A DNA stretch of 33,975 nucleotides from a virus. A program made the position numbers and the translations under genes. Of this stretch, positions 277-32,171 are shown piece by piece (within the stretch, counting starts at the first letter, position 1; every line of letters starts with the position of its first letter). Where the stretch lies: positions 1 through 33,975 of the IMG/VR virus record IMGVR_UViG_3300017605_000867; one strand, given 5' to 3'. The notes beneath the pieces are model-generated. The model searched no databases, had not been told where the DNA came from, and worked only from the letters and a program-made list of their open reading frames with translations.

Positions 277-280
277 AAGT

Positions 281-448: not shown

Positions 449-454
449 AATTTT

Positions 455-820: not shown

Positions 821-826
821 TTACTT

Positions 827-2152: not shown

Positions 2153-2155
2153 GTT

Positions 2156-3160: not shown

Positions 3161-4870
3161 ATGAGTGACTTCACTGTAAACGATTTCTCAGGTGGAAGTA
3201 ATCTACTTGATGATGCTACTAAGCTTGCTGTTAGTGAGAGTTATCTTATTATTAATGGACGTAGTAGATATAGTAATATTACCCCTATTAAGCAACCAGC
3301 CTTAGTCAGTGGAATCCCCCAAGGCAACTATCAAGGTTGTTATGCAGCAGGGAATTTCTTGATTGTGTTTGTTAATGGATTCGCTTACTACAAAGACTAC
3401 TCTGATGCAAATTCCTCTTTTCAGAGAGTAGTAGATTTCTCTATGTCTGCAACGGAACCAGTAATTTATACGGCGCTAGTTCCCGCAAGCACAGTTAATT
3501 TTGCTCGTGTTCCTATAACCTCAAATAAGAACGATCCTATAAATCTCGTAGGAACTACTTCTGGTTCTCCACAATGTTTAGTCTGCCAAGATGGTAGTGG
3601 AATAAATCAACCTTGGCTTATATTTTCAGATGGTAGTTCTAGAGTCTCCCAGAATTATCTTCAGTGGACTCAAGCTAAACGGGAGTATGTTCCTATTGGA
3701 AAACAGATGTTATATTCTAATGGAATATTATATGTCATTTCAGCTGATATAAATGGGAGATATACTCAGATTAACCGTTCTGTCTCCGGTAGACCGCTTG
3801 ATTTCATGGTGAATATTACTGCTACTGGAGATAAACTCTTAGCAGAAAGTGACGGTGGAGCTAGGAGCGTTTCTTACCGTGTTGATTATGACGAGATAAC
3901 TGCTCTTTCTGCTGTTACAACAACCGACGGGAGCTTCCTAGTTACCACAAAGAGAAACTCTTATTTAGTCACACCCAATTTCGGTGTGACTCTCTTTGGA
4001 GAACCTACTTTTAGGAATGCTTACTTATTTTCAACAGGAGCTATTAATAATTTCTCTGTTGTAGATATTCTAGGTGATACAGCCTTGATTGATTTCACGG
4101 GAGTAAGGAGTTTTAACGCCGTTTCATCTATTAGATTTGAAGGCCGAAACTCTCCCTTCTCTGCTAAATTATCTACGCTTTTTTCTAATATAGTCCAATC
4201 TTCCAATAACGCCGCTATCTCCTTTGATAACTATGCACTCTTTTCAATGGATACTATTTTTGGTCCAGCCGTTATTGTGTACGACACTCTTCGTAGTAGC
4301 TTTGTTGGGATTGATTCGTTTACTAATCTTGGGGTGGACGGAAGTAATTACCCGGCGAGAATTAAGCAGTTCGCAGAAACTAAAACAACTCTCGGTAGGA
4401 GATTATTCTTTATAACTACTTCTAACAAACTATTTGAATATTATGCTGGAGAGACAGCAGATTGTACGGTTTTTACTAGAGAGTTCTGTAGTCAAGACCC
4501 AAATATAGAACTTAAACCAACTGGAGCTTATTGTATTTTTACTGACTCTAGAGAGAATGGACAAGTAACTATAAAACTCTTCGTAGACCGTATTTTCCAA
4601 TATACTACTACTGAAGACGTAGAGAAGAATCTCTCGGAAGTTGTTCCACCCACGCTTGTTACTCCGCCCTTCGGTGTTTACACCCAAGACAACGTAGATA
4701 ACGTAGATTTCAACTTCTTACAAGTTAAGCAGGGATGGAAGTTTATGACGGCTATCTCTTGGAACTTTCTAAGTACTTTGACTACTATTAAGGCTACAGC
4801 CAATGATGTTAAGATGGAGAGTAGTTTGAGGACTCAGATTAAGAACTACTCCCGTTTTGCTAATCCTTAG
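3161..4870 (+). CDS. Candidate tail nozzle (tail tubular B-like) protein, 569 aa
   Basis: ATG follows the previous stop with no gap. The 569 residues are predominantly beta-forming, with few charged helices. The opening block (VNDFSGGSNLLDD, then PIKQPALVSGIPQGNYQG) resembles the start of beta-propeller nozzle or stopper proteins of short-tailed phages, in which a gene-specific parameter list is followed by propeller blades. Repeating (F/Y)xVTTxxNSYLV, TALIDFTGV and FALFSMDT-like strands would be blades. It would form the distal tail tube. The assignment is inferred from composition and position after the adaptor candidate. Another beta-propeller tail protein is equally possible. Confidence 0.45.
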   Translation: MSDFTVNDFSGGSNLLDDATKLAVSESYLIINGRSRYSNITPIKQPALVSGIPQGNYQGCYAAGNFLIVFVNGFAYYKDYSDANSSFQRVVDFSMSATEPVIYTALVPASTVNFARVPITSNKNDPINLVGTTSGSPQCLVCQDGSGINQPWLIFSDGSSRVSQNYLQWTQAKREYVPIGKQMLYSNGILYVISADINGRYTQINRSVSGRPLDFMVNITATGDKLLAESDGGARSVSYRVDYDEITALSAVTTTDGSFLVTTKRNSYLVTPNFGVTLFGEPTFRNAYLFSTGAINNFSVVDILGDTALIDFTGVRSFNAVSSIRFEGRNSPFSAKLSTLFSNIVQSSNNAAISFDNYALFSMDTIFGPAVIVYDTLRSSFVGIDSFTNLGVDGSNYPARIKQFAETKTTLGRRLFFITTSNKLFEYYAGETADCTVFTREFCSQDPNIELKPTGAYCIFTDSRENGQVTIKLFVDRIFQYTTTEDVEKNLSEVVPPTLVTPPFGVYTQDNVDNVDFNFLQVKQGWKFMTAISWNFLSTLTTIKATANDVKMESSLRTQIKNYSRFANP

Positions 4871-4881
4871 GGAATTCTCTT

Positions 4882-5241
4882 ATGGAGAAACAATTAAATA
4901 TAGTAGAGATAATGAGATTTATAATGAATAACTCTCACTCTAGGGCTTTTCCTAGCTGGCCACTTACGAAGATTTTTGACTGCATACTTATTTCTTTAGT
5001 GACTGGAAATATTATTATTTGTGCAGAAAACGGTTCTATAACTGGAGTAGTGCTATTTCATGTAGATGGAAGAACAGTTCATGTAAGTCAGTTGATAGTT
5101 TCCTCGAAGACGGCGCTAAGTCGTTTCATCTCTTATTATAAACTCCGTTACGCTACCTACTGCGTCACAGGTCAGCGCCGGGGGAAACTAAGAATCTACA
5201 ATAATATAGAGAAGCTATTCTCTTTACTTCAAAGGATTTAA
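4882..5241 (+). CDS. Small GNAT-like / T7 gp13-like protein, 119 aa
   Basis: The 119-residue product has the strand pattern of a compact GNAT fold: GNIIICAENGSITGVVLFHVDGRTVHVSQLIV, then a helix (TALSRFISYYKLRY), then a strand with RRGKLRIYNN. T7 gp13, a small GNAT-like internal virion protein, sits in the same place between the nozzle and the internal core proteins. I see no clear acetyl-CoA binding R/QxxGxG/A motif, so catalytic activity is doubtful. The identification rests on fold pattern, size and synteny. Confidence 0.4.
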   Translation: MEKQLNIVEIMRFIMNNSHSRAFPSWPLTKIFDCILISLVTGNIIICAENGSITGVVLFHVDGRTVHVSQLIVSSKTALSRFISYYKLRYATYCVTGQRRGKLRIYNNIEKLFSLLQRI

Positions 5242-5245
5242 TTAT

Positions 5246-6349
5246 ATGGGCCAACAATATCGACCACCGGATGTCAGTCATTCTACGGCGGACCAACTAC
5301 AAGCTCTAATACAATATCTGCCTGGACTTTCTAAGGTTTTTAATGAACAACTCCTCCCGACTGAACAAGCTAATTTAGCTACTCAACAAGCAATAGCCCC
5401 AGGACAACAAGCTCTAGATACTCAACTCTACGGAACTTATGGACCTCAGATAGCTAAGATAAGTAGTGATATAGCTGCTCAACAAACTACTAGAGATGCT
5501 TCTACTTTAGCTGGTCCCGGTCAAGACCTAGCTCGCGCCGCTGTATCAGCCCAACAGATAGCTGACCCAGAGTACTATCGGACTCGTGCTCTATTGGGGC
5601 AGAAGACTAATGACCTACTTAATTCTATTGATGTAAATGGCCTCTCAGGTAGTGAGAGAGCAGAAGTAGAAAGGAGGTTGAATCAAGAGGCACAACAGGG
5701 TGGGAGTCCTGATATTTCGTCAGGAATTAAGACAGCTCAGAATGCAGTTACTTTTGGAAGCGCACTACAATCTAAAAGAAATGCCTTAGGTCAAGCTATC
5801 GGAGAAGCAACAAACTTCCTACCAACAGCAAAAAGCGGAGTAGATGTCTTTCAACAGGTTACTGGCCGTCCTTCTCTAGGTCCAGCAGCGGCGCAACCTA
5901 CCTCAGCTAAACCAGTTGGTTCTACTGCATCTAATCTTACTTCTCAATTATTTGGTAACATCGGAGATACCCAAGCTCAAACTCAAGATTTGATGGCGGC
6001 GCGAAAAACTACTGACCAGAGAGTTAATGCTGCAATAGGGAGTTTTTGTTGCTTTATCTTCTTAGAATCTTATAATGGATACTTACCTACTTTTGTTCGT
6101 AAGATGCGTGATTACTACTATGCAACAGAACCTTCAACTGCTATTGGTTATAAGCGCATGGCTAGGATTCTTGTTCCTCTTATGCAAAAAAGTTCCTTTA
6201 TTAAGAATCTTGTTAATCGCTATATGGTTATCCCTATTACTCAGTATGGCGGTTGGGTTATGAACGTTCCTGGATATAGCCCTTTTGAGAAGAAGAGAAT
6301 ATTTAAGAGGTTTTGGTTCTGTGTTTGGAAGTTTTTGGGAAAGATATAA
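5246..6349 (+). CDS. Internal virion (ejection) protein candidate with a distinct C-terminal domain, 367 aa
   Basis: Residues 1-260 are alanine-, glutamine- and serine-rich and mainly helical, typical of virion core proteins that are ejected with DNA. From about residue 268 the composition switches abruptly to an aromatic, basic, cysteine-containing domain (CCFIFLESYNGYLP, later TQYGGWVMNVPGYSP). I have an impression that similar C-terminal blocks are appended to unrelated virion proteins of short-tailed phages, but could not check it. It lies where T7 gene 14 would be. No transmembrane helix is obvious, but the last 25 residues (KRFWFCVWKFLGKI) are strongly amphipathic and could bind membrane. 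Function is inferred, not shown. Confidence 0.5.
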   Translation: MGQQYRPPDVSHSTADQLQALIQYLPGLSKVFNEQLLPTEQANLATQQAIAPGQQALDTQLYGTYGPQIAKISSDIAAQQTTRDASTLAGPGQDLARAAVSAQQIADPEYYRTRALLGQKTNDLLNSIDVNGLSGSERAEVERRLNQEAQQGGSPDISSGIKTAQNAVTFGSALQSKRNALGQAIGEATNFLPTAKSGVDVFQQVTGRPSLGPAAAQPTSAKPVGSTASNLTSQLFGNIGDTQAQTQDLMAARKTTDQRVNAAIGSFCCFIFLESYNGYLPTFVRKMRDYYYATEPSTAIGYKRMARILVPLMQKSSFIKNLVNRYMVIPITQYGGWVMNVPGYSPFEKKRIFKRFWFCVWKFLGKI

Positions 6350-6352
6350 TTT

Positions 6353-7612
6353 ATGGCCTATCAACGAAGAAGATATTTACCACAAGATGATACTCCTCAT
6401 GGAGGGGGAGCAAATTTAGTTAAGGGGATACTTAATCTACTTGGTGGAGGTTCACCTACTTACAACGGAGGGATTGATTCTGCTGCTAGTGAAGGGGGAG
6501 TAGCTATGTCTAGTGGTGAGAATGCTCCATTAGCTAAACCCGGTAGTTGGAGCGGAGGTTATAATATCTTTGATAAGATTTTAGGTAAACAAAATCAAGC
6601 TGAGGCATTAAATAATCAGGTTAGAATGGACCAAATCCAAACTAATATGGAGAACCAAGCTGCACTTGAGCAAGCTAAGAGGATGAATCAGCAGGTTATT
6701 AATCCTCAGATGCAGTATCTTAACTTGGAGAAGAGCTTAGCTGCTATGCCTTCTACAGGTCAACAGGGTCTAGTTGATCGTTCTATCAGTGATGTCTCTA
6801 TACTTCCAAGTGAAGAACAAAATCGTGTTCCAGGAACAGATATTATTTTTCCTCAGTCTACTGCTACTAGTTCTTTTATTCCGCCTAGTGCTAAATTTTC
6901 AACAAGCACTACTCTTGACCCTACTATAGCTCTTAAAGCTCGTACTGCCGCTGTTGCTCCACAATATTCTCAAGATGCAGCCTTAGCTTCCCAAAATTAC
7001 TTAACTCGTGATATAAATCGTGCTCAACTAGTGGGTGCGCCGGAAGAAGCTAGGCAGGAACAACTAGCTAGGACTAACGCCGCTAGAGCTAAAGCAGGTG
7101 TTAGTGGGCTTGCGGCGGATACAACAGCACAAAATTACAAGACTTCCCTTGATATTGCTCGTCAACAAGCTGCTAATGAAGCTCTCGGAGAGACTGCTAA
7201 AACTCCTTGGGTTATGAGTAAACCACGCTTAGAAGCAGAACACATGCAGAGTGTTAATGACTTAAATAGAGCTACTGCTGAGCTTTATCGAGGGGGTAGA
7301 ATGCCTCTAATGGGAGCACAGACCAAAGAAGCGGAACAAAGAGCTATTCCAGAAGGACAAAAATTAATAGAGAGATTTCAAGCTCTAGGTCAACTTGAGA
7401 AAGGTGGAGCTACTCCCGGTCCAACTCCTCCTGCTGTAACTACTCCTATAACAGCGCCACCGATGTCAACGGCGCCGCCAGTTCCACAAGCTCAAACAGT
7501 AGAGGGGACTCATTATAGGACTAATCCTGATGGAACTATAACTATTTTAGCTCCTATTCTTTTACCGAATAATACGGTTCTTTATCCTGGAATAGTTAAA
7601 AGAAGACAATAG
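6353..7612 (+). CDS. Internal virion protein candidate, 419 aa
   Basis: The product is rich in Ala, Gln, Thr and Pro. It has a glycine-rich start (HGGGANLVKGILNLLGGGSP), a long helical middle with many Q/A/N residues (about 80-310), and a proline-threonine linker (TPGPTPPAVTTPITAPP) before a short beta tail (TNPDGTITILAPILLPNN). Such helical low-complexity proteins are usual among ejected core proteins. It sits between two other large virion candidates with 3-6 base gaps. No enzymatic motif is visible. In a T7-like arrangement this would be the gene 15 position. Confidence 0.45.
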   Translation: MAYQRRRYLPQDDTPHGGGANLVKGILNLLGGGSPTYNGGIDSAASEGGVAMSSGENAPLAKPGSWSGGYNIFDKILGKQNQAEALNNQVRMDQIQTNMENQAALEQAKRMNQQVINPQMQYLNLEKSLAAMPSTGQQGLVDRSISDVSILPSEEQNRVPGTDIIFPQSTATSSFIPPSAKFSTSTTLDPTIALKARTAAVAPQYSQDAALASQNYLTRDINRAQLVGAPEEARQEQLARTNAARAKAGVSGLAADTTAQNYKTSLDIARQQAANEALGETAKTPWVMSKPRLEAEHMQSVNDLNRATAELYRGGRMPLMGAQTKEAEQRAIPEGQKLIERFQALGQLEKGGATPGPTPPAVTTPITAPPMSTAPPVPQAQTVEGTHYRTNPDGTITILAPILLPNNTVLYPGIVKRRQ

Positions 7613-7618
7613 AGTTTT

Positions 7619-10600
7619 ATGCCCATTGACCTTACAGGATTTGAGCCAGTTATCTCTACTAATGTAGCTCCTAATTTTGAGGACTACGTTCCTGTTGGTG
7701 CTCCTAAGAAACCAAAAGGACCATTAGAGAGTATTCGTGAACTACTCTCTCCTATAACTGGTCCAACACCTACTCAATTAGAAGAGAATCCTCCTACTGT
7801 TCCAGTTAGTCCTGATGCTGGTTATTTAGATAGAGTTCGTTCGGCGCAAGGACTCCTACCGAAAGTTTTTACTTCCCCACTAAATTTACCTTCTCTTCCT
7901 CAACAGCCTGATGTAGAGGGTAATATATTCAAACAAGCAGCAGCTAAAATTAATCAATTTAATTCTGGTCTATATAATGTAGCTGCAAAAGGGATTATTG
8001 AGCCTCTTCTTTCTCCAGGAGGTGTAGCTACTTTAGGAGCTGGGGCTGCTACTAGAATTCCGGGTATAGTTGGCAGAGGAGCAGACTTAGGCTTAAAAGC
8101 TCTATCGGGAATTTTGGCGCCGCAAGCTGCAGGAACCGTTATAGAAGGAACACAGGCTCCTACTCTACAACAGAAAATAGAGAAAATAGTCGGTGGTGGA
8201 TTACTTGGGATTGGGGCTTATAAAGGTTTGAAGGGGATTGGACCAAGAGAAGTTTCTAAACCTTCTGAGGTTCCAGTAGCTAAACCAAATCTAGAGTACG
8301 TTCCTGAACTAAACGAACCTCTTCCTACGCCGTGGATAGCTACAGATGAGAAAGGAAGATTCTTAGTAAAAGATTCTATTGTCAAAGCTAAATTCGATGA
8401 AGTAGTTAAAACTCAAGGAAATGAAAATGTGCCAACTAAAGTTAAGCGAGAATTCTTACAGCAACAACAAACTGAAGTAGGTAGTGATACACCTAATTTT
8501 GCGGCGCAAGAGAAACTCTCCCCTCTACAGATAAACCAAGCTTCTGAGATATCGGAAGCAGCTAAAACTCCTAATCGTCCAGAAGAAGTTCTTGCTAGAC
8601 CTCCCAGTAATCTCGAAGTAGCTAAAGGACTTCCTAAGTATTCTTCTTATAGTGAAATCCCTGTTCTAGCTAAACTTGGACAACCTCCCGTAGAACCTTA
8701 TTTCAAACAGCCTACGCCGTTGTCTACTGCTAAAGAAGTAGCAGAAAATAAAGCCGGTGTTTCTTATCCTCTACCGGGAGAGGGAGAGTTTTTGTCTAAG
8801 ATGGAATTATCTACTGCTCTTAATAGACCTCTTACAGACGTTGAGTATGCTCGTCTTAGATTGGAATTTCCGAAGACTAAAGAGCCTCTTAGAATTAAGG
8901 ATAAACCGGCTTATATTGGTGAAAAACAGGGAGTAGAATTACCTAAGAATATACAACTACCGGATAGACCTGGTCCTACTGGTGAAGAACTAGGTAGTAT
9001 TCCAGTACCTAAAGAGCCTGTAAAACCAACGGCGCCGTTAGAAACTACTACTCATCCTCTAGATGGTATTAAACCAGAAGATATAATTCCTATAGAAAAA
9101 GAACCTATAACGAAAGAAGAACCTTATGCCCCTCAATCCGAAAGCACCAATCTCGGAGAACATCCGGGAGTTCCACCACGGAAAAACCTTCCAGCGGACA
9201 TTAAAGAAATTCGGCAAGAAGAAAGCGGACAAACAAGCAGTAGCGGTAGCTTACTCAGTAGCGAAGGAAAAGGAGAGTTATCCGAAAGCAAAACCTTACC
9301 AATAGAACAAGGAGGTTATAGACCAGATGAACCTTATACTGTTAAGAAAGCTGGAGGTAGGAATATAGGTAAGTGGGAGATTCCTTATATCGGTCAATTC
9401 AAAACTAAAGTTGAGGCAGATGCAGTAGCTTCTAAGTTAAATGAAGCTAAAGTTTCTCCTAAAGAAGCTTATGAGGCTGCTAAAAAAGGTGTTTCAGAAG
9501 TACTTAAATTAACAGAGCCTAAAGTAGAAGGAGGACTTAACATAAAACTCGGCAACCCCTCCGAACTCGGCGGCCTAGACCTCTCCGTTATACATGATTT
9601 TGCTCGTGGACTCTATGACAATACTAAGGATTTTGCTAAGTGGTCCGTAGAGATGCTGAAGAAATTCCCCTCCTTAGCTCAAGAACATCTAAAACAAATC
9701 TGGACTAATCTTCGTGCTTCTAAGTTAGATGCTCCCCTCTTAACTACGCCGATAACTAAACTCTCTCAAGAAGGTCCAAAAGGCAGTGTTGTTGCTGATG
9801 CTGCTATTAATACTTATGAAAATTACCGGGAGAATAAGGGCAAATATATAGAGACTCCTATTCGTGCTCTAAAAACTCTAATTGGACTTAAAACTCCAAA
9901 AGACATCCTAAATAATAATTCCGATTCAGCTAGAAGAGTTCTAAAATACATGGATGAAGTCTCTGATAATGGCTCTTCTAGCATAAAGCTGACGGCGCCA
10001 GAACAGCAAGCAGTTGATGTTATAAAGAAAACTAACACTCTAGTCCGTGACGAACAAAATTCCCGTCCCGGTATGAGACAAGGTGGCTACAATCCAGACT
10101 ACTTACAACAAAGCTTTGACCGAGGAGCCTTACACTATATAACTAATGAACCAGAATCCCCAAAAGCTAAACAATACGAGAAAGACTTCTTAGACTACCG
10201 TGTTAATAAGAAGGGTCAGACTCCTCAAGAAGCTCAAAAAGATTGGGATATAATTAAGAAGGGTTTTTCTAAACAGTTCTCTAATGCTGCTGAACAATTC
10301 GGTCCTCTTGATAAAGCTGCTGGACTTGGTATTCCTCCTTCTATGAGAAGCCAGAATCTCTTTGACCGTATCAAAAACTATGGAGATAGAGTAGCGCGCC
10401 GTTTCGCTTATCACGATAACTTTGAAGCAAATCCCACGGCGCAAGATGCCCTAAAGGATTATTCTGCTAGTGAAAACTGGAAACGTATCTTCCGTGATAT
10501 AAGCGGACAAAGAGAACTGACAGAAACCAAACGTAATGCAGTAATGGGTTTAGCTAAAGCAGGTATGACTGGAACTCTAACTGGAGTCCGAAATTTAATC

Positions 10601-12034
10601 CAGGGCCAATATCTTGGTTGGGACCAATTCACAGGAAAGCAAATAGCTGTAACTACTGCTAAAGGATGGTTGGATTTTAAGAAGAATTGGGAGCGGACTT
10701 TCTCTCAAGGAATAAACCGGGAGAATATAGCTTCTATTGAATTTGGAGAAGGAGGACTAAAAGATAGTATTCGTACTATAAACAGAATCCGTGATATAAC
10801 AAACTCCTTAATGGGTAAAAACCTCCTAGAGAAAACCGCCCGAACAGTTAATATGGGAATGGGTCGTATTAACACTATAGAGAATTTCTCTGCTGCTCTT
10901 AACAAAACTGCCTCTCCGACTCAACTTAGATGGTTAGATAATTATGGAAAAACTGAGAATTGGAAACAATATTTAACTAAAGGTTCTCTTCCTGATGAGG
11001 TAATTGACCGTATGGCTGCTAAATTTGTAGAGAGTGTTCAAGGAACCTATGATTATAGAACTCTTCCAAGTTGGGCTGTAGAAGGCAGTGTTGCACCGTT
11101 TTTCTCGCTCTCTCGTTGGAGTATAGATAGAACAAATCGATTTACAAAAAATGTAGTTTCTCCTCTAGTTAACGGGGATATAGCTCCGGCGCTAAAAGCA
11201 ACTCTAGGAATGATAGTTGGAGGAACTGTTATTGACCAAATAACTCAAGCTGCATCTAAAAGAAGGAATCCAGTTCCTACTCTCGGTGAGATACAAGCTG
11301 GTAAGGAACAAGGAACAGATGAAAAAGGAATACTACTCTATAAATTAGCTAGTCTTTCTTCTATTTCTAGTATGATGGGGTTTCATGGAGATCTTTTCAA
11401 GACAGTAATGGATAAATGGTATGGTAATCGTTCTACTGAATTTAATAATCCTGCTCTAGAATTAGTAAAAAATCTAGGAGAGAGAACCTTTGATGTAGTC
11501 CAAGCTCACGCCGAGGGAGACCTTAACTTATCTGATGTCCCTAATATTATTTCACAAGTTCTTCAAGATAATGCCCAAAATTGGAGAATAGCCCTAGCTC
11601 AATTTTCTAAAGACCAGCAAGAAGAAATCTCCCGTTCTAATGCTTTCAAAGAGAGGAGAGTTTTCCGTCAAGTAACAGGAAGAGGAGTTCAGACTCTTGG
11701 TGGTGAAGATACAAGCAATCCATTTTTGAACAAAGATATTCGAGAATATAAGAGGACCGGGGACATTAACCGCGCCGCAGAACTTCTACCGAAAGTAGCA
11801 CAGAATATTCTTTCTAAGAATAAAAATGATCCAGAAGCTACTATTAGAAGTTTAGAAAGCTTGAAACAGAACTCTTATGCTACTTTTCCTTCACCGGAGG
11901 ACTCTCCGTTGGAGTTTGGAAAGTATTTACAATACTTAGATAAGACTAAGGGAGTAGAAGAAAGAAACCGTATGTTGATGGATTATCTTAAGCAGGAAGA
12001 AGTAAATAAGATTAAAGCTAAGATGATTCCGTAA
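7619..12034 (+). CDS. Very large internal virion / ejection protein candidate, 1471 aa
   Basis: This is the longest gene. Residues about 1-700 are low-complexity, rich in Pro, Lys, Glu and Thr, with a hydrophobic glycine stretch near 135-200 (SPGGVATLGAGAATR, GGGLLGIGAYKG). Residues about 700-1471 are helical and globular-looking, with a possible hydrophobic segment near 1195-1215 (PALKATLGMIVGGTVIDQI). Size and last position in the cassette match T7 gp16-type ejection proteins. I found no convincing lysozyme or transglycosylase active site (no clear E-x(8)-D-x(5)-T or SLT motif). Nucleotides 9120-9330 use codons unlike the rest (AGC, CGG, TCC) and are bounded by a 10-base direct repeat. The stop overlaps the oppositely oriented next gene. 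Confidence 0.55.
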   Translation: MPIDLTGFEPVISTNVAPNFEDYVPVGAPKKPKGPLESIRELLSPITGPTPTQLEENPPTVPVSPDAGYLDRVRSAQGLLPKVFTSPLNLPSLPQQPDVEGNIFKQAAAKINQFNSGLYNVAAKGIIEPLLSPGGVATLGAGAATRIPGIVGRGADLGLKALSGILAPQAAGTVIEGTQAPTLQQKIEKIVGGGLLGIGAYKGLKGIGPREVSKPSEVPVAKPNLEYVPELNEPLPTPWIATDEKGRFLVKDSIVKAKFDEVVKTQGNENVPTKVKREFLQQQQTEVGSDTPNFAAQEKLSPLQINQASEISEAAKTPNRPEEVLARPPSNLEVAKGLPKYSSYSEIPVLAKLGQPPVEPYFKQPTPLSTAKEVAENKAGVSYPLPGEGEFLSKMELSTALNRPLTDVEYARLRLEFPKTKEPLRIKDKPAYIGEKQGVELPKNIQLPDRPGPTGEELGSIPVPKEPVKPTAPLETTTHPLDGIKPEDIIPIEKEPITKEEPYAPQSESTNLGEHPGVPPRKNLPADIKEIRQEESGQTSSSGSLLSSEGKGELSESKTLPIEQGGYRPDEPYTVKKAGGRNIGKWEIPYIGQFKTKVEADAVASKLNEAKVSPKEAYEAAKKGVSEVLKLTEPKVEGGLNIKLGNPSELGGLDLSVIHDFARGLYDNTKDFAKWSVEMLKKFPSLAQEHLKQIWTNLRASKLDAPLLTTPITKLSQEGPKGSVVADAAINTYENYRENKGKYIETPIRALKTLIGLKTPKDILNNNSDSARRVLKYMDEVSDNGSSSIKLTAPEQQAVDVIKKTNTLVRDEQNSRPGMRQGGYNPDYLQQSFDRGALHYITNEPESPKAKQYEKDFLDYRVNKKGQTPQEAQKDWDIIKKGFSKQFSNAAEQFGPLDKAAGLGIPPSMRSQNLFDRIKNYGDRVARRFAYHDNFEANPTAQDALKDYSASENWKRIFRDISGQRELTETKRNAVMGLAKAGMTGTLTGVRNLIQGQYLGWDQFTGKQIAVTTAKGWLDFKKNWERTFSQGINRENIASIEFGEGGLKDSIRTINRIRDITNSLMGKNLLEKTARTVNMGMGRINTIENFSAALNKTASPTQLRWLDNYGKTENWKQYLTKGSLPDEVIDRMAAKFVESVQGTYDYRTLPSWAVEGSVAPFFSLSRWSIDRTNRFTKNVVSPLVNGDIAPALKATLGMIVGGTVIDQITQAASKRRNPVPTLGEIQAGKEQGTDEKGILLYKLASLSSISSMMGFHGDLFKTVMDKWYGNRSTEFNNPALELVKNLGERTFDVVQAHAEGDLNLSDVPNIISQVLQDNAQNWRIALAQFSKDQQEEISRSNAFKERRVFRQVTGRGVQTLGGEDTSNPFLNKDIREYKRTGDINRAAELLPKVAQNILSKNKNDPEATIRSLESLKQNSYATFPSPEDSPLEFGKYLQYLDKTKGVEERNRMLMDYLKQEEVNKIKAKMIP
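9137..9290 (+). repeat. 10-base direct repeats 144 bases apart in a compositionally different coding segment
   Basis: TCCGAAAGCA occurs at 9137-9146 and 9281-9290, exactly 48 codons apart and in the same frame of the 1471-aa gene. The segment between is rich in AGC and CGG codons, unlike the flanks, and encodes a Ser/Gly/Glu linker. An in-frame insertion or a linker that expanded by duplication is possible. Confidence 0.4.
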
Positions 12035-14932: not shown

Positions 14933-15162
14933 AAACAACAATCCACCTTTATAAAAGCAATAACATTCCCACAATTTTGACAACCAACTACAACTATTCC
15001 AGTCAATAGTTTGTAAGAGAGTTCTAGGTCTTCATCATCTAAGCACCTAGGACAACGAAGGAAGACTACATTATCTACGTGATTGTGTTTGTTCTTACAG
15101 TCTGGATTCTGACAACCTTTTAGAGCTGCATTATCTAGATCAGCTTGGATTAGTGGTCTCAT
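14929..15162 (-). CDS. Zinc-ribbon protein, 77 aa
   Basis: The 77-residue product carries several cysteine pairs: CQNPDC with downstream H, CPRC at about 37-40 and CQNC at about 61-64, ending DCCL. These can form one or two zinc-binding knuckles. Zinc ribbons next to phage polymerases commonly mediate protein or nucleic-acid contacts. It overlaps the end of the polymerase gene by 23 bases (15140-15162), implying coupled translation. The precise role is not known. Confidence 0.65.
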   Translation of the reverse strand: MRPLIQADLDNAALKGCQNPDCKNKHNHVDNVVFLRCPRCLDDEDLELSYKLLTGIVVVGCQNCGNVIAFIKVDCCL

Positions 15163-16138
15163 AATCTTTCATCTCCTTTAGATTTTTACCTATAGAAACT
15201 TCAGCCTTCATACGGAACTTCTCTCCTCTAGGTGAAGTGAGTTCTTGCTCCATTGCTTCTTTACAAACTAACGCCGTCTGGAGAATATAACCTTCGTCGT
15301 TAGGACATTGAACTAGAATACCATCGTGTTCGTTTTGAAGGAGGTCAATAGCTAGTTTGTCTTTTTCTATAGAGTTCTGTAAAAATACAACTGCTTTATG
15401 AGTGATACAAGCTACGGTGCTTTGTGCTGGAAAAGCATAACCAGATTTCCATAAGTCATCTCCTGCTGGTTGATGAAATAACCTAGGATAACCAAACAAG
15501 TTCTCCAGTCTTCTATACTTAGTTATCTTATCTCTTACTTCTCCGTGCCATTCTTCAATCTCAGGGAAGGTATCGTGAAAGGTTCCTAGCCAATCTCTAC
15601 ATTCTCCTATAGAAGGTGAGAGGGTTCCTTCTGTATCTAATAGAATGCTCATTTGGAGAGTAGGTGCTTTGACTCCGTAGGAAGCTGAGTGGATAGTCTT
15701 CTTCCCTACGTAGTATTTCATCTTATCGTTCTTAATCGCTGAAGAAACTTCTTTCCATTTAGGTAAGAGTGGGAGGTCAGCAATCGGCGCCGTTAGGAAT
15801 TCTTTTATAACAGTAGATGAGAATATATGACTCCAAAAAGGCTCAAAGAGTCGGAGAGCCATGTAGATATGGGGTTTTATACCGTTAGTAAAGAGACTTC
15901 TATACTTAGCATTTCTACAGAGATAAGCTACTATTAGTGCTTCTGCCCCGCTCTGGTCTACCTTAAGGAAAATCTTACCTTCATCTGGAATATAAATCTC
16001 TCCTACTTTATCTTTGTCGATATTCTGTAAATTCCCGCCGTAGCCACGTTGTTCAGGTGGAAACTTAAGTAGAGCTTTAGAACTTAACCTAAAAGTTTCT
16101 GTTCCTGCTAGACGGTAGCCTGTAGTAGTACGGTCCAT
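15140..16138 (-). CDS. DNA polymerase family A, C-terminal (palm/fingers) half, split gene
   Basis: The 332 residues begin exactly at the block that opens the palm in family A polymerases: LAGTETFRLSS (10-20), then NLQNI (36-40). Motif A is FLKVDQSGAEA (57-67, catalytic D61). Motif B / O-helix is GKKTIHSASYG (145-155, with K146, H150, Y154). Motif C is NEHDGILV (269-276, catalytic D272, Gly where Pol I has Glu). All parts for nucleotidyl transfer are present, but there is no exonuclease or thumb. Those are encoded by the gene at 16482-17915, so this is the C-terminal half of a split polymerase. An intact ATG follows the stop of the intervening gene after three bases. Confidence 0.92.
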   Translation of the reverse strand: MDRTTTGYRLAGTETFRLSSKALLKFPPEQRGYGGNLQNIDKDKVGEIYIPDEGKIFLKVDQSGAEALIVAYLCRNAKYRSLFTNGIKPHIYMALRLFEPFWSHIFSSTVIKEFLTAPIADLPLLPKWKEVSSAIKNDKMKYYVGKKTIHSASYGVKAPTLQMSILLDTEGTLSPSIGECRDWLGTFHDTFPEIEEWHGEVRDKITKYRRLENLFGYPRLFHQPAGDDLWKSGYAFPAQSTVACITHKAVVFLQNSIEKDKLAIDLLQNEHDGILVQCPNDEGYILQTALVCKEAMEQELTSPRGEKFRMKAEVSIGKNLKEMKDYETTNPS

Positions 16139-16141
16139 ACT

Positions 16142-16504
16142 TTAATCTCCAAACCATTCTACATCCTGAAAACGAACTATAAAAGGATTGCTACGAATAT
16201 TTTTAACTACAAACAATACATATTCTTTTTTACCTGTAGCATAAGCTTGTCCATCTTCATGTCCTGTTTCCCAATCTTTGTGTGCTGAATGATATTTATA
16301 ATCTGACATTATTACTTGTCTAATTCCGATTATTATACCATAATGAAGCTCTTCTGTTTTATTAGCAATTATTATTCTTGGACCTACTACATGAAAATTT
16401 TCATCATAAGTATTTTGAAATCTATCAGAAGCAGCTCTAGGATAAGAGACTTTGAAAGATATTCTTTTACCGATTTTAGCATTACTGCAATTTAGAGGTG
16501 TCAT
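16142..16504 (-). CDS. Hypothetical protein inserted between the two polymerase halves, 120 aa
   Basis: The 120-residue product has a mixed beta pattern (YGIIIGIRQVIMSDYKY, EYVLFVVKNI) and no endonuclease, intein or helicase motif that I can see. It starts inside the end of the N-terminal polymerase gene (overlap 16482-16504) and stops four bases before the ATG of the C-terminal polymerase gene. Being flanked so tightly suggests it arrived with, or caused, the split. It might bridge the halves or be a remnant of a homing gene; neither is shown. Confidence 0.7.
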   Translation of the reverse strand: MTPLNCSNAKIGKRISFKVSYPRAASDRFQNTYDENFHVVGPRIIIANKTEELHYGIIIGIRQVIMSDYKYHSAHKDWETGHEDGQAYATGKKEYVLFVVKNIRSNPFIVRFQDVEWFGD

Positions 16505-17915
16505 ATCCTTTAGGATTCCAAGTTTGGAACTTCAAACTAGAAGCGGCCTTACCAGATGACCGCGCCGCTAGAATGATTTTTATAGATGGGATATTTTGTT
16601 TCGTTAGGAGTTTCAACAACTGACGTTCGTTCGTAACGTCCTTACTAGGACGTTCTAATCTAAGGTCGCTGTAAAGATACTCTTCTACTTGTTTTGGACT
16701 CCTAGGGTTGAAATCCTCTTTATTAGTCACTATGTTAAGACACCGACAAAGTTGTTCATATCTCCGGTGAAAATCTTCATAGAGAGTTTTTACTTTCTCT
16801 GTGTCGAGTTTTATCCCTTGAAACATCATTGTTAAGTAAGGTCTAATAGACTCATTAACCTGTTCTATAGAACTCTCGGCGCGAAGTCTCTTGGCCTCTT
16901 CTAACAATGGTTCATAGAGCATCTTCATTGTCTCTACGTCCTTACCGTTGTATTTCCACAAACTTTCTTGCTGAGAGAAATTCTTTGGGTCATAAATACC
17001 TTCGCTCTTGTGATAAGGTAAGTCCGTAAAGAAGGATATTACTCTAGCAAGGGATTTCTCCACTTCTGGGTAGAGTCTAGAGAACGCGAGCATCGTATCA
17101 AAAATCTTCTTAGGAAAAGGAACCTTATACTTAAGAGCCAACACAAACAAGTCAAACATACTATTATGGGCGATAACAGTATTATCTCGAAAGCTAATTG
17201 AAAGACTTCGGATAATTTCTCGACAGTCGTTTTCTCCATAAGCTAGTTGTCCGGTGTAGAGTTTCCAGGGGACCACAAAAACATTCTCTGAATCTAGAAA
17301 GCTAAATCCAAAACAAGTCATGTTAAGATTCTTGTCTGTTTCTATATCCACAAATAAGTGAGTGTTCTTGAAACACTTTAGATAAGAAATGACATTTTGC
17401 GCCGGAGGATTATAGAAAGCTTCTGAACCACCTTCCGAATAGAAAGAATGACGGCGTAAACCATTATGAAAAATCCTTAGAGCTTTCTTTACATCTTGAT
17501 AGAGCCAAAAACGATAATTCTTCCTCTGGGTTCTTCCACTAGTTTTAACAGAGGTATCTTCACTCTCTGCTGGAGTGTCTTCGTCTTCTCCGAAGTAGTT
17601 ACTTCTATCAAAGGCATCTTGAGGGGTAAACGTCGGAAGGAATACAACGTCATTTTGAATAATGGGGTATCCGTGAACAATGTCTATACGTTCACCAGGA
17701 CTAACTAAATCTAGAGCTTTCTGACCTAAAAGAAGGACTACTTTAGTTCCTGGTAAGTAGGGGTCTTTACTCTCTACAGTTCGGAGGTCAATTACTCCTC
17801 TATGTAAGGGGATAATTATAGACCAAAAGAAACTACCTGCATAGCCAGAGATTAGTTCTTCTGTATCGTGTCTGCTAGCTGAAGAGAGAACTACTGTGAA
17901 ACCAGAGTAGGTCAT
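16482..17915 (-). CDS. DNA polymerase family A, N-terminal half: 3'-5' exonuclease and thumb, split gene
   Basis: Residues about 55-105 (KVVLLLGQKAL, HGYPI, VFLPTFTPQDAF) resemble the uracil-glycosylase-like domain that precedes some phage polymerases. The proofreading exonuclease follows: ExoI FVDIETD (D190, E192), ExoII AHNSMFD (N251, D255) and ExoIII YNGKD (Y322, D326). A thumb region (about 350-460) ends with DFNPRSPKQVEEYL and ILAARSSGKAASS, which in intact enzymes is followed by the TGRLSS palm entry. The frame stops at 477, so the palm is supplied by the separate gene at 15140-16138. Its ATG overlaps the stop of the small membrane gene upstream. Confidence 0.9.
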   Translation of the reverse strand: MTYSGFTVVLSSASRHDTEELISGYAGSFFWSIIIPLHRGVIDLRTVESKDPYLPGTKVVLLLGQKALDLVSPGERIDIVHGYPIIQNDVVFLPTFTPQDAFDRSNYFGEDEDTPAESEDTSVKTSGRTQRKNYRFWLYQDVKKALRIFHNGLRRHSFYSEGGSEAFYNPPAQNVISYLKCFKNTHLFVDIETDKNLNMTCFGFSFLDSENVFVVPWKLYTGQLAYGENDCREIIRSLSISFRDNTVIAHNSMFDLFVLALKYKVPFPKKIFDTMLAFSRLYPEVEKSLARVISFFTDLPYHKSEGIYDPKNFSQQESLWKYNGKDVETMKMLYEPLLEEAKRLRAESSIEQVNESIRPYLTMMFQGIKLDTEKVKTLYEDFHRRYEQLCRCLNIVTNKEDFNPRSPKQVEEYLYSDLRLERPSKDVTNERQLLKLLTKQNIPSIKIILAARSSGKAASSLKFQTWNPKGYDTSKLQ

Positions 17916-23935: not shown

Positions 23936-24472
23936 TTAGGAACTAACCACATCTGCAATCTCTTCCATTGCCTTAGCAGCAAGTTCATCTAGTTGCTTAG
24001 TGTATTCGATAGCCTCAAGAGCGAACTTCTTGTATTCGTCCATCTTACCGAGTTTCTTGGCTTCTTTAGCGTTTTCAAAGGCCTCAGTCCGCTTACGAAG
24101 TAAGCCTTGTTCACTCAAACTATCACGAGAGCCTGGTTCATAAGCCATAGCATCATCTGCACTAATAAGAAGAGTCCTCCCCTCGGCTACTTTCTTTCGA
24201 TTATCTTCCTTACTTTTTAGCATTTGCTTGGCTTTACCCCTAAACCTAAATTCCAAATTAGAGTTAGCAAGCAAGAGAGCAGTCTCTTCTCCCTTACCCT
24301 TAGTTACTTCATCTAGGTGTTTAATCAAACCGGGTAGAGTCTTAGCTCTAGGAGAGTAATAAGAGAAGTCCTTGAACTCTTCTTTGAAGGTATTCAAGTT
24401 TACTACCATGTCACCCTTGTCGATGGTTTCGGGCCTATTGGTGTTCACTACTGTAGTTTGTGTCTCATTCAT
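23936..24472 (-). CDS. Abundant-looking hypothetical protein, 178 aa
   Basis: The 178-residue product is helical and highly charged, with a coiled-coil-like C-terminal half (RTEAFENAKEAKKLGKMDEYKKFALEAIEYTKQLDELAAK). Its codons are richer in C/G-ending triplets than neighbouring genes (for example aag, gag, ttc), which is typical of a highly expressed gene. It is preceded by a sigma-54-type promoter and an A-rich leader, and followed by three structured RNA elements and a terminator, so it seems to be a nearly separate transcription unit. No family recognised; a DNA-binding or scaffolding role is only a guess. Confidence 0.7.
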   Translation of the reverse strand: MNETQTTVVNTNRPETIDKGDMVVNLNTFKEEFKDFSYYSPRAKTLPGLIKHLDEVTKGKGEETALLLANSNLEFRFRGKAKQMLKSKEDNRKKVAEGRTLLISADDAMAYEPGSRDSLSEQGLLRKRTEAFENAKEAKKLGKMDEYKKFALEAIEYTKQLDELAAKAMEEIADVVSS

Positions 24473-24605: not shown

Positions 24606-24621
24606 AGCTACCCTCATGCCA
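24606..24621 (-). promoter_or_regulatory. Sigma-54-type promoter candidate (-24/-12)
   Basis: Leftward strand: TGGCATG-AGGG-TAGCT, with the GG and GC elements exactly 10 bases apart as in the consensus TGGCACG-N4-TTGCW. One change in each half. Transcription would start near 24595 and run into the 178-aa gene. The sigma-54 activator gene ends only about 35 bases upstream. Confidence 0.5.
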
Positions 24622-24656: not shown

Positions 24657-25415
24657 TCATGAATTAAGTAGTTTATATTCTTTTATCCTGTTTAGAAGTT
24701 CCCTCACGTTACCGGGCCACTCCTCTAAGCTCCAAGCAAAAGGATTATCCCAAGAGGATGTATCTAGATTGTTTTTAGCTAAGATAAGCTCTACGTCCTG
24801 ACGGCGCCGTCTGAGTGGGATTATCTCTACTATACTCCCTGCTAGGCGGTAGAATAAATCTCTTCTTATCCCAAGGTCATCTAAGCTCTTATTCGTCGCA
24901 GAGACAAATCTACAAGTAATAGGAAGGTCTTCGGTATCTCCTAGTCTTCTATATGTCTTGTCCTCAATAGCTCTAAGTAATTTACATTGTAATAATAAAG
25001 GCATATCTCCTATCTCATCCAAAAATAAAGTTCCCTCATGGGCCTCAGAAATTAAACCTTTTCTATCTGCCCAACTACCAGTATAGGCACCTTTCTTAGA
25101 ACCGAAAAATTCACTTTCTAAGAGTTCATTAGGTATCCCGGCGCAATTAACGCCAACGAAACGGCCTTTAGCTCCTGAAGTCTCATGGATTCCTCTAGCG
25201 ATAAGTTCTTTACCTACTCCGCTTTCTCCAACTATAAGGATGTTTATGTCTCCTTTGGAGAGTTTCTTAACTCTCTCTTTCATTTCTAGCATAGATGCGT
25301 CAGAAGTAAGAAATCTATCTAATGCTCTCTCTATAACTACGCCTAAATCAGAGGCTAAATCCTCTAGTCCTAAGCTTTCTAGTTGTCTAGCTAAGCTTTC
25401 TTTGTTGTTTTTCAT
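24657..25415 (-). CDS. Sigma-54 activator AAA+ domain protein (bEBP core), 252 aa
   Basis: The protein is a complete bacterial enhancer-binding-protein ATPase core: Walker A GESGVGKE (63-70), the sigma-54-contacting loop GAYTGS (109-114; consensus GAFTGA), Walker B FLDEIGD (131-137), sensor I SATNK (172-176), arginine-finger segment RRDLFYRL (184-191) and sensor II WPGNVREL (233-240). Such proteins remodel RNA polymerase-sigma-54 closed complexes using ATP. A receiver or GAF domain in front and a Fis-type DNA-binding helix-turn-helix behind are both missing. The first about 50 residues are only a short helical region. It may act from solution or through a partner. Perfect -24/-12 promoters elsewhere in the window support function. 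Confidence 0.92.
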   Translation of the reverse strand: MKNNKESLARQLESLGLEDLASDLGVVIERALDRFLTSDASMLEMKERVKKLSKGDINILIVGESGVGKELIARGIHETSGAKGRFVGVNCAGIPNELLESEFFGSKKGAYTGSWADRKGLISEAHEGTLFLDEIGDMPLLLQCKLLRAIEDKTYRRLGDTEDLPITCRFVSATNKSLDDLGIRRDLFYRLAGSIVEIIPLRRRRQDVELILAKNNLDTSSWDNPFAWSLEEWPGNVRELLNRIKEYKLLNS

Positions 25416-29851: not shown

Positions 29852-29943
29852 CTAGTATTAATGTCGGTTAATGAGTCTAACCGGGGTTAGTTACTCCTTA
29901 GCTAACCTAGAGAAAATCCCTTGGTTAGCTAGAGAGATACTAG
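29852..29943 (-). ncRNA. Three-way-junction-like RNA element in the leader of the 180-aa gene
   Basis: CTAGTAT/ATACTAG (29852-29858 with 29937-29943) closes a junction holding CGGTTA/TAACCG (29865-29870 with 29878-29883) and TAGCTAACC/GGTTAGCTA (29899-29907 with 29923-29931). All stems are perfect. It spans most of the gap between the 78-aa gene and the SD of the 180-aa gene. It could regulate or stabilise the downstream message. Confidence 0.55.
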
Positions 29944-30176
29944 CCTTCCTTCATTCTGTTAATAACTTTCCAGCCGAAAGACTCCCATCTTGCCGGAGAG
30001 TAACCTCGGGCACCTCTAAGTTCAACTTGCACTAGACAAGACGGCGGAGTGTCGCCAGAGCATAAAGAATCAATCGTGATTGCATCGTCAGTGGTCGATG
30101 GCCAGCACATATCATAGCGTAGCATATCAGTGGGAAACGGGCCTTTGCCTTCGACGCGGAGTAGTTGTGTTCGCAT
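29940..30176 (-). CDS. Conserved-looking small phage protein, 78 aa
   Basis: I chose ATG at 30176 (MRTQLLRVEGKGPFP) rather than 30281, since the block V-x-G-x-GPFPTDMLRYDMCWP resembles the start of small phage proteins of unknown function that I recall. GAAAGGA 10-16 bases upstream may serve as a weak SD. It is the first gene of the leftward operon and lies below the leftward sigma-54 promoter (about 345 bases downstream of the likely start point). Role unknown. Confidence 0.65.
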   Translation of the reverse strand: MRTQLLRVEGKGPFPTDMLRYDMCWPSTTDDAITIDSLCSGDTPPSCLVQVELRGARGYSPARWESFGWKVINRMKEG

Positions 30177-30457
30177 AAGAGTAGTTTTCCTTTCGTTAAG
30201 TAGAAATATCTCAAAATCCGCTGGCGCCGTCAACATCAGACTGTCATTTAGTGAAAATAAACTCGCTATAAAACTACCCATATAGACCTACTTTGGCCTG
30301 AAAATTGCTTAAATCCCTAAAACTCCTAAAAACCTGCTAGAAGGATAGCATGAGGTATGCCCAAAGGAGTTGATGTTGAGTTTCCTTTGATCAAGTTTGA
30401 AACGAAACATCCGTCCGGCGAGGAGCCATAACGAAATGAAATGCAAGAAAAACACAA

Positions 30458-30496
30458 AGCGTGCCATCGTGCAAAATGCCCGATGGCCAAAACGCT
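30458..30496 (-). repeat. Strong hairpin in the leftward leader
   Basis: AGCGT plus GCCATCG (30458-30469) pair with CGATGGC (30481-30487) and ACGCT (30492-30496), a 12-base stem interrupted only by a 4-base bulge. Located about 25 bases inside the transcript expected from the leftward promoter. Candidate leader structure. Confidence 0.55.
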
Positions 30497-30532
30497 CACG
30501 CGATCACAGGCATGGCATGAAAAATGCTGCGT

Positions 30533-30548
30533 AGCAAGGACCGTGCCA
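30533..30548 (-). promoter_or_regulatory. Perfect sigma-54 promoter, leftward
   Basis: Leftward strand reads TGGCACG-GTCC-TTGCT, an exact match to the -24/-12 consensus TGGCACG-N4-TTGCW. Transcription would start near 30521 and enter the leader of the leftward replication operon (first gene 29940-30176). It is a near mirror image of the rightward promoter 79 bases away. Confidence 0.8.
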
Positions 30549-30626
30549 ATATATGTTACATTATATATAAAACTAAAAAAAAAAAAATAAAGAATAAGAA
30601 TAGAAGACCTGTAAATCCCTTCCGGT

Positions 30627-30642
30627 TGGCACGCGAATTGCT
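30627..30642 (+). promoter_or_regulatory. Perfect sigma-54 promoter, rightward
   Basis: TGGCACG-CGAA-TTGCT matches the -24/-12 consensus exactly. Transcription would start near 30654 and head for the HTH and terminase-like genes. The 78 bases between the two divergent promoters are AT-rich with an A-tract, a suitable place for a bent-DNA or activator site shared by both. Confidence 0.8.
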
Positions 30643-30704
30643 TACGTGCAAATTGCAATGTTCTAGTTTCATTTCATTTAGTTTTACCTGGCCAGGTGAG
30701 CAGA

Positions 30705-30740
30705 AGTTTAGTTTCAAACCTGCTTAAACGGAACTAAACT
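30705..30740 (+). repeat. 9-base hairpin followed by CGGCGCCG
   Basis: AGTTTAGTT (30705-30713) pairs perfectly with AACTAAACT (30732-30740), loop 18 bases, in the early rightward leader. A GC-rich stretch with CGGCGCCG at 30747-30754 follows. No U-run, so not a typical terminator. Confidence 0.5.
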
Positions 30741-31005
30741 ACCGGCCGGCGCCGTTAACCTACCAGCATCTAAGCTAGTTCCCTTAGCAGTTCCGCTGCC
30801 AATTACCTACTAACGAGTCTAACTAACCGAATACTAGATACCGATATGCTACAAAAGCAGATGCCCCAGAAATGAAACTTGGCCTTGGCACACTGTAGTT
30901 CTGACAAAATTTACTAGAAATCGAGTCAAAATATAGCTAATACTAAGATTTATACAGCTAAAAGTAGGTAGAATAAGCTAAAAAATCGTCAGGTTTTCCT
31001 AAAGT

Positions 31006-31021
31006 TGGCATCTAGGACGCT
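31006..31021 (+). promoter_or_regulatory. Weak sigma-54-type promoter candidate, rightward
   Basis: TGGCATC-TAGG-ACGCT keeps the GG and GC elements with correct 10-base spacing but differs at other -12 positions. It is 39 bases before a possible 30-aa frame. Lower support than the perfect pair. Confidence 0.3.
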
Positions 31022-31059
31022 CGGTAGTCCAGTGAAAAGAAAGTTTTAGGGGTAAAATC

Positions 31060-31152
31060 ATGAAAATCAACTTAATCGAACAGTGGAAAAAGGCCGGATT
31101 CTCGGCTAAAGTCATTGAAATTTGTTCCGCCCATTTAAGTTGGGTGAGGTGA
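31060..31152 (+). CDS. Possible small protein, 30 aa
   Basis: ATG at 31060 follows TTTTAGGGGTAAAATC and opens a 30-residue frame (starting MKINLIEQWKKAGFS) to TGA at 31150-31152. The amphipathic helix looks protein-like, but length and isolation make this uncertain. The rest of 31153-31292 shows no gene. Confidence 0.3.
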   Translation: MKINLIEQWKKAGFSAKVIEICSAHLSWVR

Positions 31153-31292
31153 TAAAACTTTTTAGGGCAAAAATAGGGGTAAAACTACTTAAATTGACCC
31201 AGTAAGCGTCGGGATTTCGTAACTAAAACGATGGTTTTGAGGGCCAAAGGTGGGGATTTTCGACTTTAGTTAACCTAAATAAAGAACAGTTT

Positions 31293-31538
31293 ATGGGCGA
31301 AATAGCAGATATGCACTCACAAGGGTTGACAGTTAAGCAAATTGCCGACAGTTTAAGGATAGACAGAAGAGAAGTTCAGCTAGTTTTAGACAAAGAAGCT
31401 GAGAGAGCCGGTGCTTTAAGCCGAAGTTTAAGTTATCCATCGTATGATACTATTCATAGAGAAAATAAAGTCTTGAAAGAAGAGAATTCAAAACTTCGTG
31501 CTAAGTTAAAAGAAGCCGGGATTAAGATTGATTTTTAG
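31293..31538 (+). CDS. HTH plus coiled-coil protein, 81 aa
   Basis: Residues 1-35 (MHSQGLTVKQIADSLRIDRREVQLVL) have the spacing of a Hin/resolvase-type helix-turn-helix (GLTVKQIADSLRI-xx-REV). Residues about 52-78 (IHRENKVLKEENSKLRAKLKEAG) form a leucine-zipper-like coiled coil. Together they suggest a small dimeric DNA-binding protein. Its HTH resembles that of the terminase-like gene 200 bases on (LTPAQIAESLFLEEKDV). It could be a regulator or the DNA-recognition partner of the packaging complex. Confidence 0.6.
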   Translation: MGEIADMHSQGLTVKQIADSLRIDRREVQLVLDKEAERAGALSRSLSYPSYDTIHRENKVLKEENSKLRAKLKEAGIKIDF

Positions 31539-31543
31539 TAGTT

Positions 31544-31732
31544 ATGGCTCTCCAATTACGAGATGAAGATATAGTTAGGTCTTTATCTACTAGACATTAC
31601 CTAGAAGAAATAAAAGAATTGAAAGAAGAGAACAAGAATTTGAAGGAATATTTAGCCTTACATAGAGTTAACTATAGAGAAATTTATCCGCACCGAACAG
31701 AGTGGAAAGAAATAATGTTAGATAATGATTAG
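31544..31732 (+). CDS. Small coiled-coil protein, 62 aa
   Basis: The product has a central lysine/glutamate-rich coiled coil (LEEIKELKEENKNLKEYLAL) similar in style to the tail of the preceding HTH protein (LKEENSKLRAKLKE); the two may pair. No DNA-binding motif is visible. Start follows the previous stop by five bases. Family unknown. Confidence 0.55.
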   Translation: MALQLRDEDIVRSLSTRHYLEEIKELKEENKNLKEYLALHRVNYREIYPHRTEWKEIMLDND

Positions 31733-31739
31733 AAAGTAT

Positions 31740-32171
31740 ATGGCCCAGCAACCCTCCCAAATAGTAGAAATGAACCTCCAGGGACTTACTCCTGCACAGA
31801 TAGCGGAGAGCTTATTCCTAGAGGAGAAGGATGTCATTGCTATTATTGAAGCTAATTCACGCCGGGAGAGTGAGTTTTCTCTAGATGAACTCTATGAGAA
31901 GCACCAAGTTGACGCCGTTAAGACTCTTGCTTCTATAATGAAGTCAAGTGAGAATGACTCGGCTAGGGTTACTGCTTGTAAGGTTCTTCTTACTAGGGGT
32001 GGAAATCTAACTGATGACACTATGAAGAGACTCTCTGACCGTTTCGAGAGGATGAAGAGTATAGTTAATAAGACCTCTTTTAGCAATAGGGTAGATTATG
32101 TTACTACCTTGAGTGCAGACGGCGCCGATGGAAATGGAGCTAGAGTTAGTTTGAATCTTCAGCAAGATTAA
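31740..32171 (+). CDS. Terminase small subunit-like protein, 143 aa
   Basis: I prefer ATG at 31740 (MAQQPSQIV) over the in-frame ATG at 31725, because 15 bases around it (TATATGGCCCAGCAA) recur exactly at the start of the gene at 33781. The N terminus carries a helix-turn-helix (LTPAQIAESLFLEEKDVIAII); the middle VDAVKTLASIMKSSENDSARVTACKVLLTRGG is an alpha pattern common in small terminase subunits. The role would be recognition of the packaging site. The large subunit is not in the window, so this rests on domain pattern alone. Confidence 0.5.
   Translation: MAQQPSQIVEMNLQGLTPAQIAESLFLEEKDVIAIIEANSRRESEFSLDELYEKHQVDAVKTLASIMKSSENDSARVTACKVLLTRGGNLTDDTMKRLSDRFERMKSIVNKTSFSNRVDYVTTLSADGADGNGARVSLNLQQD

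Follow-up and report, generated by a model that had tools for sequence, protein, structure and literature searches.

Divergent -24/-12 elements in a phage control region and a putative phage-run sigma-54 regulon

Host sigma-54 in phages and the known activators

Phages take over the transcription of their hosts by means of viral polymerases, viral sigma factors, the appropriation of sigma-70 or antitermination. Use of the host sigma-54 is rare but known, the precedent being the Pseudomonas phage YuA. According to a passage in PMC5053324, which cites Ceyssens et al. 2008, the development of YuA is strictly dependent on host sigma-54. The YuA record (NC_010116) carries three annotated high-activity -24/-12 promoters in the late region. 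The DNA analysed here is a partial dsDNA phage genome from a virus record; by the window we mean this whole stretch of 33,975 nucleotides. The clade of the window resembles YuA, a Yuavirus, in that structural genes lie behind -24/-12 promoters which are predicted here to be read by host sigma-54. This arrangement is seen through the capsid genes of relatives, the capsid gene of the window itself lying outside the record. However, the 50 kb of YuA examined showed no homologue of the viral activator described below, the -24/-12 regions annotated in YuA score below the strict PWM threshold when read on their annotated strand, and the genome layout is unrelated. Kinship with Yuavirus was not found either: a near-DNA search of the phage collection gave no match to the window, and YuA is not among the listed polymerase matches.

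Another host regulator with phage-wide use is CtrA, the sites of which are described for phages of Alphaproteobacteria in PMC9437464. These phages, like the window, have genes under a host regulatory system, but the regulator is not sigma-54. With the bacterial enhancer-binding proteins NtrC, FleQ and PspF, the viral activator shares an AAA+ domain, Walker A and B motifs, a GAFTGA-like loop and R-fingers, whereas it has no N-terminal sensor of a known type and no C-terminal HTH, and its gene lies beside its own sigma-54 site. Activators without an HTH exist in bacteria as well, e.g. FlgR of Helicobacter and CtcC of Chlamydia, which activate sigma-54 without a DNA-binding domain, and domain-deleted or naturally HTH-less bacterial activators act from solution. 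FlgR and CtcC carry receiver domains, however, and serve flagellar or developmental genes, whereas the viral protein is essentially a bare AAA+ core. Our search of the open literature found no paper on a network of sites under a phage-encoded sigma-54 activator. What looks new here is the phage-encoded HTH-less activator, its coupling to a sigma-54 site of its own and its spread over a large clade.

The control region and its -24/-12 elements

A non-coding control region of about 1.0 kb (30282-31292) separates the replication arm on the minus strand from an arm on the plus strand and holds no convincing gene, which confirms the large divergent gap described in an earlier note on this DNA. Two ORFs over the gap (30326-30658, minus strand, and 30524-30727, plus strand) were rejected as spurious, since the two overlap in opposite orientation and extend over conserved elements. 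In relatives, a gap of 0.8-1.1 kb with outward sigma-54 sites is found at the same junction. The replication arm encodes a helicase, a PD-(D/E)XK nuclease, a split family A polymerase and DUF3987; its first ORF (29940-30281, minus strand), located downstream of the element at 30533 described below, matched no family. The polymerase (15140-17915) consists of two ORFs with a small ORF between them, one comprising the exonuclease and the start of the polymerase domain and the other the rest. These parts are separate matches in many relatives, and the relative G031 has one ORF of 834 aa.

The first annotated ORF of the plus-strand arm is small and shows a weak HTH and a coiled coil (31293-31538, plus strand; E about 2e-3, below the cut-off). 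It is followed by a likely terminase small subunit (31725-32171, plus strand), which matches at 31% the ORF directly behind the predicted plus-strand promoter of G001, the closest relative (E=2.5e-14), and then, if the genome is circular, by a late or structural-looking arm at 1-12034. Genes for a terminase large subunit, portal or capsid were not recognised in the window, and they are probably missing from the contig. A short plus-strand ORF of 30 aa (MKINLIEQWKKAGFSAKVIEICSAHLSWVR, 31060-31152) is present in the leader between the plus-strand element at 30627 and the arm.

Two perfect -24/-12 elements are found in the gap: TGGCACGGTCCTTGCT on the minus strand (30533-30548), directed towards the replication arm including the activator gene, and TGGCACGCGAATTGCT on the plus strand (30627-30642), directed towards the late arm with the terminase and structural genes. 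A pattern search places both exactly where the earlier note had put them, as exact matches to TGGCACG-N4-TTGCT that stand back to back and face outward with 78 bases between them. Both contain the TGGCAYR-N4-TTGCW core with the fixed GG/GC spacing, and their intergenic placement upstream of genes, which is kept in relatives, is that of sigma-54 promoters. With a PWM score of 20.3 each they rank first in the whole window; all PWM scores given here are limited by a matrix that was built from general consensus frequencies of sigma-54 promoters. Over the 33,975-base record, the pattern at 0-1 mismatch has two matches, namely this pair, and the reversed pattern used as a control has 0. At up to 2 mismatches, 6 matches were found vs 0.82 expected, a number that was reached in 0 of 100 shuffles, so that the claim of a pair beyond chance holds. 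If the start is placed 12 nt beyond the C of the GC at -12, the predicted transcription starts are at about 30522 (minus strand) and 30653 (plus strand); the starts proposed before, 30521 and 30654, were each 1 base off. The leader from the putative plus-strand promoter to the first annotated ORF measures about 640 nt, which counts against the reading of the pair as promoters.

The AT-rich tract between the two sites includes a run of 13 A at 30575-30587. A further suggestion, that this spacer may hold an activator-binding site, found no indication, as the activator has no DNA-binding domain and no upstream motif common to the promoters was found.

Eight of the ten best PWM sites of the window fall within 30294-31021, some of the weaker ones being near chance level. 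Besides the pair, these are two near-consensus plus-strand sites, TGGCATGAAAAATGCT (30513-30528, PWM 16.6) and TGGCCTGAAAATTGCT (30294-30309, PWM 16.3), the latter at the far edge of the gap and directed towards the plus-strand arm; three weaker and doubtful sites, namely TGGCACGCTTTGTGTT with a degenerate -12 (30451-30466, minus strand, PWM 12.5), TGGCAGCGGAACTGCT (30786-30801, minus strand, PWM 12.7) and TGGCATCTAGGACGCT near the start of the plus-strand arm (31006-31021, plus strand, PWM 10.5); and GGGCATACCTCATGCT (30347-30362, minus strand, PWM 9.6), which is itself near chance level. The ninth of the ten best is the minus-strand site at 24606, which follows shortly after the activator gene. 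A family of 19-nt repeats (D1) has members at 30294, 30512 and 30626.

The plus-strand site at 30513 stands face to face with the minus-strand element at 30533, and the two form an imperfect inverted repeat (30513-30548, 16-4-16). Because of this arrangement simultaneous occupancy is impossible and the two would compete for polymerase, and a built-in exclusion switch is conceivable. The site at 30513 is odd for a clean divergent switch and counts against the promoter reading of the pair; the window differs from the other genomes in having such a face-to-face site. A sigma-70 promoter scan of the control region gave one weak match, which lies inside a gene and below the shuffled mean, and no early promoter is therefore named. 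A search for a T7-type polymerase (PF00940) gave no match, nor did it give one in the control genomes.

The activator and its companion site in relatives

The minus-strand ORF at 24657-25415 encodes a predicted sigma-54 activator of 252 aa that consists of an AAA+ domain only (PF00158, E=9.2e-54). Walker A (GESGVGKE), Walker B (LFLDEIGDM) and R-fingers are present, as seen from PF00158 and the alignment to 6jdi, and the protein is close to the solved AAA+ domains of NtrC, FleQ and PspF (to 2.3e-48). Domain search and alignment gave no C-terminal HTH, the protein ending at the lid. Judged by its domain content, it would be enhancer-binding-protein-like in action and not of the classical enhancer-bound type. 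The activator also matches phrog_7998 of PHROGs (E=2.1e-38), a family without an assigned function, for which we propose sigma-54 activation. The sigma-54-contact loop (24837-25307) reads GAYTGS and not the canonical GAFTGA, which counts against a role in the proposed regulon; it is GSYTGC in G001 and mostly GSFTGA, also GAFTGA or GSYTGA, in other relatives. Since none of the 13 records checked contains a viral sigma-54 (PF04552), the host must supply this factor, and we assume that it does possess it.

A minus-strand sigma-54 site, TGGCATGAGGGTAGCT (24606-24621, PWM 14.6), lies 35 bp downstream of the activator stop, and when this region is aligned with its post-activator counterparts in relatives, the -24/-12 element is the sole invariant block. 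The ORF downstream of this site (23936-24472, minus strand) matches at 32% the post-activator ORF of G001 (tblastn 2.6e-10). A conserved ORF family of 130-190 aa is found behind the post-activator promoter in G001, G005, G032, G035, G041 and the window (contigs L065-L099, L181-L197); perhaps it represents an abundant DNA-binding or assembly protein.

A search with the activator yielded 62 viral loci. The HTH is absent from most phage-type activators among the relatives, and nearly all HTH-less ones are closely followed by a near-consensus sigma-54 site in the same orientation. After removal of near-duplicates, a site within 500 nt downstream was found for 26 of 29 HTH-less vs 1 of 10 HTH-bearing activators (Fisher p=9e-6), the rate in random windows being 5.7%. 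Single-query searches for relatives with the helicase and with a 334-aa late-arm protein found none because the pattern method needs close relatives, whereas an alignment of the C-terminal half of the polymerase worked and selected at least 394 viral contigs. Among the loci selected in this way, 47 of the 48 that show the activator have a same-strand site (score of at least 14.5) within 350 nt downstream of it, and the 30 loci in which no activator is visible extend less than about 6.6 kb from the polymerase towards the side where the activator would lie. The viral sigma-54 activator postulated in the earlier note thus exists and is conserved together with sigma-54 sites. One genome, G003, has the activator and lacks the site, which is a point against the regulon. 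In G031, a whole contig of 55 kb with a polymerase 42% identical, neither PF00158 nor a site of 16 or more was found; it may be regarded as a natural negative control, which differs beyond the activator as the capsid homologue is absent too.

In the ML tree, the HTH-less activators are placed on one side of a branch (support 96/94) and the activator of the window groups with that of G001 (98/96), which is compatible with, though not proof of, a single phage lineage of activators. The genome collection contains one close relative (L100, JACTVG010000013.1, 23.6 kb) with the phage polymerase, the activator and the sigma-54 site; it is binned in a MAG of a Methanoregulaceae archaeon and is probably a mis-binned phage contig. 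No cultured member of the clade was found in the phage collection.

The sites extend over the genomes of the relatives. On 14 activator-bearing contigs, 32 sites score at least 18, whereas 100 column-permuted matrices gave a mean of 0.55 (maximum 3); at a score of at least 16, there are 54 sites vs 3.1 (maximum 10). Outside ORFs of at least 100 aa lie 41 of these 54, vs 7.9 expected by area. Bases which the PWM does not score are biased as well: 65% of the sites have T before the core, and 92% have A or T at the position that directly follows it. Of the 15 genomes in which a capsid homologue can be recognised, 14 have a site of at least 15.3 on the strand of the capsid gene that ends 87-178 nt upstream of it, "capsid" being a reading from sequence, size and position and not a database assignment; the protein gave no match to cultured phages. 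The capsid gene of G001 has a weak upstream site only. A plus-strand site is located directly before the terminase small subunit (16-145 nt) in G001, G002, G006 and G009, 354 nt upstream of it in G011 and about 0.5 kb upstream in G030, where small ORFs lie between as in the window. No shared upstream (enhancer) motif above random was found among the promoters of one genome.

At the arm junction, outward sigma-54 pairs are present in five relatives (G001, G006, G009, G011 and G030), so that the conservation of both elements, on which the earlier note had made its reading depend, was indeed found. In G001 the outward sites lie at both ends of the largest non-coding gap, before an early ORF and the terminase small subunit. 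The perfect sites of the window are placed mid-gap and 78 bp apart, whereas the outward sites of the other genomes are about 0.5-1.7 kb apart. That the pair fires both arms together, as had also been claimed, is a proposal rather than a result, and in a marine sub-clade (G005, G007, G010, G018, G020, G041) the junction has the late-arm site without the replication-arm site, another point against the regulon. G011 contains a second divergent sigma-54 pair (26057, minus strand, and 26120, plus strand) directly upstream of the capsid gene, with a window-like spacing of 47 bp.

A proposed regulon and its alternatives

With a probability of roughly four in five, we regard the elements at 30533 and 30627 as genuine divergent sigma-54 promoters and as the centre of a phage-run sigma-54 regulon. 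The RNA polymerase of the host, carrying host sigma-54, would wait on the -24/-12 sites in closed complexes, and the replication arm would be started early by another route, i.e. from a host sigma-70 or other promoter. This arm would provide the minimal AAA+ activator, which, once made, would remodel all pre-loaded closed complexes. As the activator lacks a DNA-binding domain and the promoters gave no common upstream motif, activation from solution is the most likely mode; the regulon is probably enhancer-independent, and the near-consensus promoters may make up for the missing enhancer. The element at 30627 would then fire the late arm and the site at 24606 the ORF behind the activator, and the element at 30533 would raise transcription of the replication arm, the activator gene included. 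As this gene belongs to the arm that 30533 faces, activity of the element would bring about positive feedback.

The conserved positions in relatives support a putative sigma-54 regulon which spans the phage clade and is larger than the observation of two promoters. With slightly less assurance than for the pair itself, we think it likely that the clade of at least 394 viral contigs, as defined by polymerase, runs a genome-wide middle/late programme via host sigma-54 and its own enhancer-independent minimal activator.

The same sites might be sigma-54 promoters that are fired by enhancer-binding proteins of the host (NtrC, PspF etc.), which would tie the phage to the nutritional or stress state of the host and leave the viral AAA+ protein to act elsewhere. 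YuA, with its three annotated late-region promoters and no activator gene detected in the 50 kb examined, would fit such a dependence. However, the viral activator is tightly linked with the sites, activator and sites are jointly absent in G031, and no shared upstream motif was found that could be a host enhancer, making host activators an unlikely explanation. It is less probable again that the elements merely resemble -24/-12 boxes and are bound by a phage protein (e.g. the small HTH protein at 31293) or are origin or packaging repeats, in which case the 30513/30533 repeat would be a dyad. That similar 19-nt repeats cluster and that an inverted repeat (16-4-16) is present would agree with this, but the sites of relatives occur singly, have a direction and keep a fixed distance to the capsid and post-activator genes behind them, and they obey the sigma-54 box with its N4 spacer. 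Finally, a consensus match by itself is no proof of function, and matches may arise by chance in an AT-rich window of 34 kb. No result favours chance for the two perfect sites, and shuffles, permuted matrices and conservation speak against it, the conservation excluding it in practice, so that we give it hardly any credence.

If the phage-run sigma-54 regulon is real, it would be a transcription strategy of its own among phages, next to viral RNA polymerases, viral sigma factors and antiterminators. In it, the virus would contribute the ATPase that is required to start the other transcription system of its host. Every such phage promoter would be silent until one protein appears, which would amount to a tight off/on switch, and the host range would be tied to rpoN. 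In addition, phrog_7998 would gain a testable function, and a natural enhancer-independent sigma-54 activator would be on offer for mechanistic work.
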